64,000 bases of DNA from Halobacillus karajensis (GTDB taxonomy: Bacteria; Bacillota; Bacilli; Bacillales; Halobacillaceae), in NCBI RefSeq assembly GCF_900108515.1, contig NZ_FNWW01000002.1:62001-126000 (forward strand). The letters are read 5' to 3'. Of the stretch, positions 10,490 through 31,571 are shown one piece after another. The translations under genes and the position numbers were made by a program. How positions within the stretch are numbered: position 1 is the first letter of the stretch; the number at the start of each line of letters is the position of its first letter. The notes below the pieces were generated by a model. The model was not told where the DNA came from, did not search any database, and was given only the letters and a program-made list of their open reading frames with translations.

Positions 10490-10750
10490 TCTATATACGT
10501 GAAATGCTTAGATAGGGAAGAGTACATGAACAAATCCTTCAGAGAGGAAAACATTTGCTGAGAGTTTTCTAGGAACCCTGTTAATGGAAGGTCCCCCTTG
10601 ATGCAGCTTCTTTGAACTTTAAGTAGGAGAAGCCGGTTAGAAGCCGTTATTTATTTTGAGTGTACAGGAATGTCTTCCTGTAAATTAAGGTGGTACCACG
10701 GAAAATAATCCCTTTTCGTCCTTTGTTGGATGGAAAGGGATTTTATTTTT
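10490..10750 (+). promoter_or_regulatory. T-box riboswitch of valS
   Basis: Leader RNA that senses uncharged tRNA(Val). It contains the AGTA of the specifier loop near 10520 and an AGAGAG bulge near 10541. A GAAG-GTC segment follows, whose GTC at 10591-10593 is the likely valine specifier. The T-box proper is AAGGTGGTACCACG at 10687-10700, followed at once by a terminator stem (AATCCCTTT / AAAGGGATT, 10707-10743) with a T-rich tail. When uncharged tRNA binds, the antiterminator should form and valS is read. The specifier assignment rests on hand-folding and on the downstream gene. Confidence 0.93.
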
Positions 10751-17960: not shown

Positions 17961-18524
17961 ATGCGAATTAAACCATTGAATCAAACCAGTATAATGATTA
18001 AAGATGTCCCAATGCAGGATCGACCTAGGGAGCGCCTGATTGAACTGGGGGCTTCCCAGTTATCAAATCAGGAACTTTTATCTATTTTATTGGGAAGTGG
18101 TACGAAACGGGAATCAGTTATGGAACTGTCCAATCGCTTACTTGTTCATTTTGAAGGAATTATGCTGCTAAAGGATGCAACCGTGGAAGAATTGACGGCG
18201 ATCAGAGGAATTGGGACAGCAAAAGCCGTGTTACTCTTGGCTGCGATCGAAATGGGCAAGCGTATGCAAAAAATGAAACCTGTAGAACGTTACATGATCC
18301 GCAGTCCGGAAGACGGAGCAGATTTTATTATGGAAGAAATGAGAGATTTAAAGCAGGAGCATTTTATTTGCTTGTTTTTGAATACAAAAAATCAAGTCCT
18401 CCATCGACAAACCATATTTATTGGAAGCCTGAATGCTTCTATCGTCCATCCCCGTGAAGTGTACAGGGAAGCCGTTAAACGGTCCGCTGCCTCCATCATT
18501 TGTGCCCACAATCACCCGTCAGGA
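17961..18524 (+). CDS. radC: RadC family protein, 5' exon (interrupted by group II intron)
   Basis: This exon encodes residues 1-188 of a RadC/DUF2466 protein: an N-terminal helix-hairpin-helix region (IRGIGTAKAVLLLAAIEMG) and the first half of the JAB/MPN-type metallo-domain, ending HNHPSG. The C-terminal remainder is encoded after the intron, and the join restores [14 protein letters not shown]. Without splicing, translation continues six codons into the intron (VRLQGA) and stops at 18543-18545. ATG 17961 has an AAGGAAAGG ribosome-binding region; ATG 17994 (MIKDVP) matches the B. subtilis start and is an alternative. RadC was once called a DNA-repair protein, but its cellular role is not established. 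Confidence 0.93.
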
Positions 18525-19089
18525 GTGCGCCTGCAAGGTGCGTAATTTTAGTGATTATAATCTAGAACTCCTTACACTGTTCTATGGTCACCATCTTACC
18601 TTGAGGGGAAACCCATATAGGGAAAAAAGCATGATGAGAAAAGGAGAAGAGACGACAACGCTATCTAATGTCGAGTCCGTTCTTCAGACCAAGTGATGCA
18701 TGGTAAAAGCTATACTGCTTGAATCCTAGACGAATGAGCGATAGGTGCGCCATAGTCTACGATAGCTAATAGGCAATGAGAGCAAAATGGGAGACACTTC
18801 ATTATTAGTGTCTGTTGGGAATCTCCTGATCCCTGCCCATAGTAGGGTTTGTTCTTCACTCCTCAAGTTGAGGAAACCGTCGAAAGGGATACCTAAACAT
18901 CACGTAACTAAAATTATGTCATAATGCAGGGATTACCTAAAATCAATAGCTATAGCTATAATGCCGAAATCTATAGATATTGCTTATGGTAACGGAGTCT
19001 CCATAGTACCCAACGTTTGCTTGTAATGAGTGGAGCAGGGGGAAGGGAGACAGGTTGATGCTGACGCCAATGAGAAAGGAGTCATGAAT

Positions 19090-20520
19090 ATGGCAACAAA
19101 TCCATTTCAACAATTGGACGTTATAAGGAACGCTTCTCAAAATGGTAAAACGATAACAGATTGCTATCGACTTATGTATAAAAAGGAATTATGGATGGAA
19201 GCCCATGCACAGTTATATCCGAATGGACGAAACCCGACCAATAAAAATGAAAAAATAAAAAATAATTTTCGTTTGCAAAAAATGAATGAATGGATTGAAC
19301 AACTTAAGGGTGGGGTGTTTCGCTTTGATCCTATAAGAAGGGTTTCAAAAGCAAATGGAAAAGCAAACCTTTTAGAGAACACCGACTTTAAAGATAAAAT
19401 CGTACAGGAAGTAATGAGAATGGTTTTGGAGAGTATATATGAACCTGTTTTTTCGAATCATTCCCATGGATGGAGAGAACAGAAAAACTGTCACACGGCA
19501 CTATCTCAAATCAAGAATACGTGGAGAGGCTTCACATGGTGTATAAAAGGAGATCTAAATACATCCCCCGTCCATTTCAACCCTTCTGAATTATTAAACC
19601 TCCTATCAAAGAAGATCGATGACCACCGTTTTCTTTTACTTATGCATAATGCTCTGTCTAGTGGTGTGTTAGAGGAGCGGGCTTATCATCACACCTATAG
19701 TGACAAATCAAAGAAGGGTGAATTTTCATCTTTATTAGCTAATATCTACCTTCATGAATTTGATTTATTCATGGAACAGCACATGAAAGGAGGATTCATA
19801 GAAACAATAGTTCCTCTTAAGCTTAACCTGAATGTCCCTCTAAGTTGTCCCTCTAAAACTAATTCTGATTCAAGAATGAATTATGTTCGTTTTGAAGATG
19901 AATTTTTAATCGGATTAGCTGGTTCCAAAGACAATGCATTAAAGATAAAGAAAATGGTGAAGAGGTTTCTAAATCAAAAACTCCATCTTGAATTAAATGA
20001 GGAGAAGATACACATTACCCACCTGCAAAATCCAATCCCTTTTTTAGGGTACGAATGTTGCAGGCAAGAGGAGAAAAGCAGAAGGGTTTCATTGAATAGC
20101 CACTCGATGAAACAGAGAACTCACTTAGAAGCTATTCTATTGAGAATTCCCAAAAAGAAAATGAGGGAATTTGTGAGATTGAATGGATATGGCCATCTGG
20201 ATAATTTTAAAATTATGCATCGAGCCAATCTCGTGAACCATACTGAATCAGAAATTCTGTCCACTTATAATGCTGAACTACGTAAAATGGCAAACTACTA
20301 TAAGCTAGCGAGTAATTACCATCATTTAGAACGGGTGTTTCATTTAGCAGAGAGTAGTTTTCTTAAAACGATTGCCCACAAGCGTAAAAGCACCTCAATG
20401 AAGGTTGCTTCAAATATGAGGGTACCCAAACAAGGAGTTTTGAGTATAGTCACCAAAGATAAAAGCGGGAATGAAAAACTCCATCATTTTTTGAAATTAA
20501 AGGATTTACCTAACGGCTAA
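19090..20520 (+). CDS. Group II intron-encoded protein with degenerate RT and retained maturase domain
   Basis: A 476-residue LtrA-like protein. RT blocks can be traced, but key residues are changed. The YADD box reads FEDE at residues 268-271 and PQG reads KKG at 208-210. The RT1-2 blocks (RRV-x-IPK and RPLGIPT in relatives) are unrecognisable. D155 of the first catalytic motif remains. The X/maturase region (about 300-430) is well kept, with IPFLGYE, STYNAELRKMANYY and LKTIAHKRKST. No HNH endonuclease domain follows. ATG 19090 lies eight bases after AAAGGAG; ATG 19084 is too close. The open frame despite a ruined RT suggests selection for splicing function only. Confidence 0.9.
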   Translation: MATNPFQQLDVIRNASQNGKTITDCYRLMYKKELWMEAHAQLYPNGRNPTNKNEKIKNNFRLQKMNEWIEQLKGGVFRFDPIRRVSKANGKANLLENTDFKDKIVQEVMRMVLESIYEPVFSNHSHGWREQKNCHTALSQIKNTWRGFTWCIKGDLNTSPVHFNPSELLNLLSKKIDDHRFLLLMHNALSSGVLEERAYHHTYSDKSKKGEFSSLLANIYLHEFDLFMEQHMKGGFIETIVPLKLNLNVPLSCPSKTNSDSRMNYVRFEDEFLIGLAGSKDNALKIKKMVKRFLNQKLHLELNEEKIHITHLQNPIPFLGYECCRQEEKSRRVSLNSHSMKQRTHLEAILLRIPKKKMREFVRLNGYGHLDNFKIMHRANLVNHTESEILSTYNAELRKMANYYKLASNYHHLERVFHLAESSFLKTIAHKRKSTSMKVASNMRVPKQGVLSIVTKDKSGNEKLHHFLKLKDLPNG

Positions 20521-20659
20521 AGCAACCCGGGTCTAGGTCAGGTAAAATGAATTTTCAAAAAAGATAGTTAGTTCTATCGGTGGAATAGAAAGACAATGAT
20601 CCAGTGTGTTCAGTGATCGTACCTACCATGAGAAGGCAGATTCCGATTAGTCAACTGGC

Positions 20660-20693
20660 GAGCCGTATACGCTGAAAGGTGTACGTACGGTTC
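20660..20693 (+). ncRNA. Group II intron domain V
   Basis: A 34-nt hairpin starting GAGCCGTATAC, with a GAAA tetraloop and ending GTACGTACGGTTC. It carries the AGC catalytic triad and the conserved two-base bulge. All bases expected for catalysis appear intact. Confidence 0.95.
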
Positions 20694-20753
20694 TGAGGGG
20701 GAGACATGAAACCTACTTTGGTTACAAGGAAAGGCGCCTGTTCTCTACCCTAC
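20694..20753 (+). ncRNA. Group II intron domain VI with branch point
   Basis: AGGG (20696-20699) pairs with CCCT (20748-20751), and GGAGA (20700-20704) pairs with TCTCT (20742-20746). A 20747 is left bulged as the branch nucleotide, seven bases from the 3' splice site counting itself. This is the expected lariat geometry. Confidence 0.9.
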
Positions 20754-20894
20754 GATCCGACCCCATCCCAGGAAGATATTCAAGTCACACGCAGATTAAA
20801 GGAATGTGGGAAAATGATCGGCATTGAATTACTAGACCATCTGGTCATCGGAGATCGTCGATTTATCAGCCTTAAAGAAAAAGGATATCTGTAA
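20754..20894 (+). CDS. radC: RadC family protein, 3' exon
   Basis: This exon encodes the last 46 residues of RadC. It opens [15 protein letters not shown], which supplies the SxxD metal-site residues, and ends [18 protein letters not shown], the usual RadC C-terminus. It has no start codon or ribosome-binding site of its own and is only meaningful after splicing to 18524. The joined protein has 234 residues from the 17961 start. In B. subtilis mreB follows radC; here it lies 39 kb away. Confidence 0.95.
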
Positions 20895-27927: not shown

Positions 27928-27945
27928 GGAGTCAAATTGAATAGT

Positions 27946-28047
27946 CATAACTAGGGGAGCCCAATGAGCTGGGCTGAGAAGGAAACGCTTTGAAGTTTCC
28001 TGACTCTTCGGACCTGATCTGGATCATGCCAGCGTAGGGAAGTTAGA
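27946..28047 (+). promoter_or_regulatory. TPP riboswitch upstream of thiC
   Basis: THI-box aptamer with closing stem AACT / AGTT, CTGAGA at 27974-27979, and GACCTGATCTGGATCATG followed by CCAGCGTAGGGAAG. All core bases for thiamin pyrophosphate binding are present. It should switch off thiC when TPP is plentiful. Confidence 0.97.
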
Positions 28048-28084
28048 ATAATCACCAATATTAACAATCCTTCTGTATACATAT

Positions 28085-31303: not shown

Positions 31304-31428
31304 ATTGAAGTGAATGTCACTATGCTGAAAGATAAATAAGAGCTTTTTTGTGAAAAATTTGAAAGGGATGTGGACTAAATCGAATAAGTCGTGTAAAGTA
31401 TAGACAAATGCAAACTGAATAGGGTGTA

Positions 31429-31520
31429 CACTAGGGGTGCCATTATGAAATGGCTGAGATCAAAGTATTACTTTGAGACTCTTTGAACCTGAACTGGCTT
31501 AATACCAGCGGAGGAAAGTG
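31429..31520 (+). promoter_or_regulatory. TPP riboswitch upstream of tenI-thiOSGF
   Basis: Closing stem CACT / AGTG, CTGAGA at 31454-31459, GAACCTGAACTGGCTTAATA and CCAGCGGAGGAAAG. The core is conserved with minor changes (CTGAACTGG for CTGATCTGG, GCGGAGG for GCGTAGG). Confidence 0.93.
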
Positions 31521-31571
31521 ACAGGACTTATAGCAATATAGGTGTATTTTCAATAGTTAACTCGTAGATCC

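Follow-up and report, generated by a model that had tools for sequence, protein, structure and literature searches.

A degenerate group II intron protein in radC of Halobacillus karajensis, probably kept as a maturase, and a graded series of introns at the same site in Bacillales

LtrA, the protein of the Ll.LtrB intron, has reverse transcriptase (RT), maturase and endonuclease activity, and Cui et al. in 2004 reportedly found that it requires both its RT and X domains. A 2015 review calls decayed intron proteins rare in bacteria and gives one example (PMC4424553): O.i.I2, in radC of Oceanobacillus iheyensis, the only bacterial degenerate case known to that review, and one argued from missing stop codons. 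As described there, O.i.I2 is of the mitochondrial-like class, lacks YADD and other motifs, and keeps an open frame between RadC exons (PMC4424553), in all of which it resembles the intron of the present study. MatK, encoded by the trnK intron of plant plastids, is similar in having lost RT motifs while keeping X, in a host gene that is needed; it differs in being described as unalignable in motifs 0–4 and as a protein that binds several introns (PMC4424553), whereas most of the RT domain of our protein aligns. MatK is also organellar, while the intron studied here is bacterial and lies between radC exons. TeI4h of Thermosynechococcus elongatus is likewise a resident intron with a variant active site, YAGD, its natural sequence giving a reported mobility of 2.5 × 10−5% at 37 °C compared with 3.4% for YADD (PMC2882425). 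That variant is a single-residue change in YADD, whereas the protein described below has lost several motifs and its endonuclease.

The window, by which we mean the whole 64,000-nucleotide stretch analysed, contains a radC gene split between NHPSG and DPTPS by an intron, the two exons joining in frame (Table 1). The radC start codon is a choice, either ATG 17994 or one further upstream. The core of domains V and VI at the intron's 3′ end matches Rfam RF00029 (20658–20753, 64.8 bits against a gathering score of 40), and the branch-point A is presumably 20747, going by its position. Delta adjoins EBS1 and pairs with the 3′ exon, ATC and TCCTGA together matching the host's own radC in 9/9 positions, which is the arrangement given as the rule for IIA-type introns (PMC4424553). 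The assignment to the LtrA-like IIA introns is borne out by a phmmer search of the PDB, in which the best solved relative is LtrA (5g2x, E = 2.6 × 10−73, aligned over LtrA residues 13–500; next match 7.1 × 10−18); LtrA differs in having intact YADD and PQG. When 44 genomes of the family were searched at the protein level, close relatives of the intron protein (>50% identity) turned up in one other genome, G036. Elsewhere the window has a T-box leader (10500–10726) and two TPP riboswitches (27943–28057 and 31423–31533).

Table 1. Features of the interrupted radC locus, in window coordinates
Feature	Position	Strand	Basis
radC 5′ exon, ending ...NHPSG	17994..18524	+	Pfam UPF0758_N and RadC; ORF
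LtrA-like group II intron, 2229 nt, GTGCG...CCCTAC	18525..20753	+	Rfam RF00029 and in-frame exons
EBS1 plus delta, ATCTCCTGA	18821..18829	+	9/9 complementary to exon junction TCAGGA/GAT
AAAGGAG (Shine-Dalgarno-like) and ATG of intron protein	19075..19086	+	sequence
Intron-encoded protein, 478 aa and stop: degenerate RT, X domain, without endonuclease	19084..20520	+	
RT3: GDIKGFFDHI-like, now GDLNTSPVHF, first Asp kept	19552..19581	+	
RT4: PQG, now KKG	19711..19719	+	
RT5: YADD, now FEDE, first Asp kept, second now Glu	19891..19902	+	
X (maturase) domain, limits approximate	20125..20430	+	Intron_maturas2 8.7e-11; X profile; ω 0.097
Endonuclease C-terminus, short remnant (RNRKTMIQC; RQIPISQLASRIR), two frames, past stop	20581..20672	+	tblastn and DNA alignment
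Domain V hairpin, catalytic	20660..20694	+	RF00029; D5 motif in 41/41 introns
Domain VI	20695..20753	+	RF00029; consensus V/VI structure
radC 3′ exon, DPTPSQED...KEKGYL	20754..20894	+	Pfam RadC 1.1e-15

An earlier note on this DNA had read the intron protein as a maturase relic with a frame open for 476 codons, and in that numbering with FEDE at residues 268–271 and KKG at 208–210; the frame (19090–20517) and both motif positions agree. Its likely start is ATG 19084 (MNMATNPF), behind AAAGGAG, while GTG 19030 would give 496 residues. The note's description of the RT motifs as ruined, with RT1 and RT2 unrecognisable, holds for part of the domain. RT1, elsewhere RPLGIP-like, is now NLLENT, RT3 and RT4 are destroyed, and 43 residues are absent between RT4 and RT5. 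However, RT2 is clear (SHGWREQKNCHTAL), much of the scaffold remains along with the RT3 Asp and the first Asp of YADD, and the protein scores 45 bits with Pfam RVT_1 and 447 bits with an RT profile built from nine relatives whose RT motifs are intact and which themselves score 813–854. The maturase region is as clear as had been claimed: besides the Pfam match in Table 1, a family X profile gives 197.7 bits, compared with 12.4 for the best shuffled protein. A Pfam scan found no endonuclease family in the protein, again in agreement with the note, and what is left of that domain is a broken remnant past the stop (joint E = 3 × 10−6 in a tblastn search using the L058 tail), the last 13 bases of which lie inside domain V. 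Given that this remnant is in two frames while the RT–X frame is open, the endonuclease, the dead part, has gathered breaks and the RT–X part none. The protein therefore has neither the intact RT active site nor the HNH endonuclease of its lineage that would mark a mobile intron.

Columns that are invariant in the relatives have changed in the window protein throughout its length: 7/15 in RT1, 4/13 in RT2, 5/7 in RT3, 8/19 in RT4, 3/10 in RT5, 2/6 in RT6, 41/139 in the other RT columns and 20/80 in X, the share being highest in RT3 and lowest in X. Motifs RT1, RT3, RT4 and RT5 together (23/51) exceed X with P = 0.022, but the remaining RT with P of only 0.056. Thus the excess of change in the RT motifs over the rest of the RT domain is marginal, and the changes extend beyond the motifs. 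An AlphaFold model from a two-row alignment had a mean pLDDT of 32.4 and was unusable.

Selection was estimated with a codon branch model (F3x4 frequencies, IQ-TREE topology) against the nine relatives with intact RT motifs. The ratio dN/dS (ω) by domain, which the earlier note had put forward as a check, is 0.097 for X on the window branch (131 columns; P(ω = 1) = 2 × 10−9; background 0.044, P = 0.09 for the difference), and 0.209 for the N-terminal and RT part (398 columns; P(ω = 1) = 9 × 10−18; background 0.087, P = 2 × 10−5), values which may average two phases, given that part of the branch may predate RT loss. RT is thus relaxed relative to the background, while X is not significantly so. 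The value near 1 in the maturase region that the note had named as refuting its reading is not what the window branch shows. The fitted length of the window branch is ∼1.2 substitutions per site. The note had argued that a dead frame would gather stops. When neutral drift of the homologous L060 frame (477 codons) was simulated, 64 of 300 copies were still open after 0.02 substitutions per site, 5 after 0.05, and none after 0.1 or more. It is extremely unlikely, on these figures, that the protein is a recently dead pseudogene with its stops yet to come. Arrival of the intron may indeed be recent, since of 22 genomes in the genus all but the window's own have an uninterrupted radC site, but ω far below 1 and the absence of open neutral frames at less than a tenth of the branch length argue for constraint on the frame. 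Most likely the protein is kept as a maturase for the intron that encodes it.

The constraint on the RT part could also be read as that of a working RT with a variant active site, in an intron that is still mobile. Both the RT3 Asp and the first Asp of YADD are kept, as is most of the RT scaffold, and the N-terminal and RT part has an ω of only 0.21. We nevertheless consider this very improbable, since the changes to RT1, RT3 (now SPVHF) and RT4 are accompanied by the gap between RT4 and RT5 and by loss of the endonuclease, and since the milder YAGD change of TeI4h already gave the low mobility reported above (PMC2882425).

To place the intron among its relatives, we searched genomes of the order and of several families for radC reading NHPxG followed by GTGYG. 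In the order, 17 of 397 genomes matched (18 matches, one left out); by family, matches were found in 28/159 genomes for that of G100, 2/24 for that of G391, 2/3 for that of G114, 1/35 for that of G267, 1/22 for that of G415 and 1/19 for that of G308. The match left out in the order is the second one of G114, which would read NHPIGVW; L114 (G554) was also left out, its contig being as long as that in the record of L001, which was used. After removal of overlaps, 41 same-site introns including that of the window remained, with NHPSG/DP in frame in 41/41. In our grouping, 10 have intact RT motifs (one YSDD) and 3 are decaying; a further 13 count as degenerate and 13 as short, and the remaining 2, with no frame >64 aa, as frameless. 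Scores with the RT profile start at 813–854 bits and drop until, in seven short proteins, they no longer reach that of the best decoy (14.4): L057, L067, L101, L103, L104 and L105 (141–339 aa) have no score or a negative one, and L097 scores 13.1. X, on the other hand, outscores the best shuffled decoy (12.4) in 38 proteins out of 39, the exception being L062, in which X lies in another frame. A Pfam scan of four reduced relatives gave a maturase call for L104 (9 × 10−10) and L101 (2 × 10−5), a match below cutoff for L107 and none for L067. Six of the 13 introns grouped as intact or decaying (L001, L060, L116, L065, L098 and L111) already have a broken or truncated endonuclease part, which suggests that this domain goes first. 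The stretch between RT4 and RT5 is absent from all nine degenerate proteins compared (that of the window, L061, L113, L106, L054, L059, L053, L099 and L107), which lack 43–73 residues with differing ends. By our count, AAAGGA directly precedes the start region in 24 of the 39 proteins.

The ribozyme core is kept throughout this series. The D5 motif is present in 41/41 introns, and the consensus pairs of domains V and VI, in a structure predicted from the same 41 sequences, are kept at 96–99% per group. EBS1 fits the intron's own exon better than any of 5000 shuffled exons, both over all 41 introns and over 20 non-intact introns taken one per close clade. We dropped an earlier suggestion that intact introns misfit their own exons: 23/5000 shuffles were as good when the segment was picked blind to the intron's own exon, a choice that is poor in some hosts with an AGY serine codon. 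L064 (877 nt) and L102 (705 nt) have no long protein frame, and their EBS1 and delta match their own exons at 9/9. In L057, L096, L103, L104 and L105 the frame of the short protein is free of stops up to domain V and continues across it as far as the end of the intron, so that catalytic RNA and protein code may overlap.

Selection on X can also be followed within the series. The cleanest test is the pair L108 and L110, both without RT motifs and presumably descended from a common ancestor that already lacked them: ω is 0.225 for X (P = 3.7 × 10−7) and 0.43 for the RT-derived part. In 11/11 other degenerate or short foreground proteins X has an ω of 0.048–0.130, although 9 of these 11 fits, all except those of L113 and L061, are saturated, with fitted branches between 2.6 and the upper bound of 8. 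Refitting X for the pairs among L103–L105 without the codons that overlap domain V gave 0.133 and 0.224, the L103/L104 fit being saturated; the pairwise fit of the RT part for L103/L104 diverged. We infer that L108 (G484), at the same radC site as the window intron, is O.i.I2 itself, from which the window protein differs in retaining far more of its RT domain (447 compared with 63 bits).

Distances over 69 radC codons and over the ribozyme bear on how the introns have spread. For the 13 introns in the intact and decaying groups, the median difference is 10% for the ribozyme and 32% for the exons, and the two are uncorrelated (rho 0.01); therefore, these introns spread between hosts. In a nine-member clade of short introns (support 100/98), by contrast, 36 pairwise comparisons, which are not independent of one another, give a rho of 0.67 between the two distances, as would fit vertical descent. 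The window ribozyme differs by 13–14% from the nearest intact ones, which are in other families, and the exons by 28–34%, so the window intron came by transfer and has decayed since. How often RT was lost is less clear. The ribozyme tree gives at least four losses (bootstrap 3–5), under irreversible loss and the best root placement, but a single clade of all 28 non-intact introns is not rejected (AU p = 0.31). In a protein tree of 26 proteins and 3 outgroups, with the 13 short proteins left out, the 13 degenerate proteins fall on one side of a branch that is weakly supported (64/84) and at which long branches meet. Two groupings count against one common loss: a clade of the window intron with L061 and L113 (p = 0.031) and one of six members (p = 0.026), whereas the three pairs gave p = 0.12–0.33; these are five tests, with no correction for their number. 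In pairwise comparisons among six of the 13 degenerate proteins, changed columns are shared above expectation and seldom carry the same residue (7/34 for the window protein with L113, 6/30 with L061). We had expected many independent RT losses, and these could not be shown from the ribozyme or protein trees.

An explanation that would leave the window protein out of splicing altogether is that a different intron protein provides for splicing in trans, the window protein being kept for some other host function. The window genome has four other group II intron proteins (L003–L006, on G000 contigs 17, 10, 13 and 21), which could help in trans, and selection on the window protein could be for another function, a bacterial intron-like RT domesticated for DNA repair having been described (PMC12337344). 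Moreover, the two genomes with frameless radC introns, G177 and G448, each have another LtrA-like protein (513 or 494 aa). However, L003–L006 are of a distant type, at 24–28% identity to the window protein; two of them are short, at 384 and 411 aa, and the matched region of the 411-aa one contains an internal TGA. Nine of the 41 genomes (G162, G267, G431, G457, G458, G459, G477, G487 and G531) have no match to an intact-type protein at E ≤ 10−20, in a search with an intact protein that finds the 34–37% identical proteins of the window genome but that decayed or very different ones could escape. All nine have decayed radC proteins, and given that no intact-type match is found there, these are the best candidates for splicing their own introns. 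Since, in addition, X is what persists across the series, we consider the explanation in trans very improbable.

In G177 and G448, radC is also interrupted further upstream, by a second intron that has no long frame. This belongs to a second group II intron site after HPREV, ∼66 nt upstream (L117, L118, L120, L121, L122 and L123; L008), and both sites are occupied in 6 of 8 genomes examined (G177, G448, G237, G391, G426 and G545). The HPREV intron has an LtrA-like protein in G391 and G426 (538 aa; 541 aa open, the remainder containing stops), has no frame >150 aa in G177, G448, G237 and G545, and in G010, of the window's genus, encodes a 605-aa protein with YADD. For L119 (G100), radC is in frame only from NASIVHPRE on, with stops just upstream, where there may be a further insertion or break.

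The reading we prefer, and hold to be highly probable, is that a once-mobile intron, now immobile, keeps its protein because the scaffold and X help that intron to splice, so that radC is expressed. An LtrA-like intron would have homed into radC of the window lineage; its endonuclease domain and RT active-site pocket would then have been lost, leaving it immobile; the remaining scaffold and X would still aid folding and splicing of the intron RNA; and the protein would be retained through the RadC that splicing allows to be made. In-frame exons, a conserved ribozyme core, matched EBS1, purifying selection, a broken endonuclease and the losses of motifs support this reading, while the persistence of two catalytic Asp residues, and the loss from X of 20 of 80 otherwise invariant residues, weigh against it. 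Loss of RT activity and mobility, help in splicing and selection via RadC are what we infer from sequence comparison. Action of the protein on its own intron, unlike that of MatK, would be the simplest reading. As in O.i.I2 and MatK, RT motifs are lost, X is kept, and the frame is open and constrained. The observation of a degenerate intron protein that keeps its maturase is thus confirmed in part, and the parallel with MatK drawn in the earlier note is supported, though not as a first bacterial case: that reading had already been published for O.i.I2, in the same gene (PMC4424553). What seems to be new is the graded series at one site and its X-only proteins, no report of such a series having been found in the open literature searched, a coverage outside which most subscription journals lie.

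Taking the series as a whole, we lean, by a small degree, towards the radC site in Bacillales being the seat of a standing cycle, in which intact introns home in across families and lose first the endonuclease, then the RT pocket and then the whole RT, ending as vertically inherited X-only maturases (141–339 aa) or frameless introns. If this cycle is true, group II introns that only splice would arise repeatedly in bacteria and endure there, and an X domain could function with no RT beside it, contrary to what Cui et al. reportedly found for LtrA. The route from selfish group II intron to splicing-only intron is relevant to how organellar and spliceosomal introns arose, and a single gene site in bacilli, with many stages of decay and intact same-site controls, would open the needs of a maturase to experiment.
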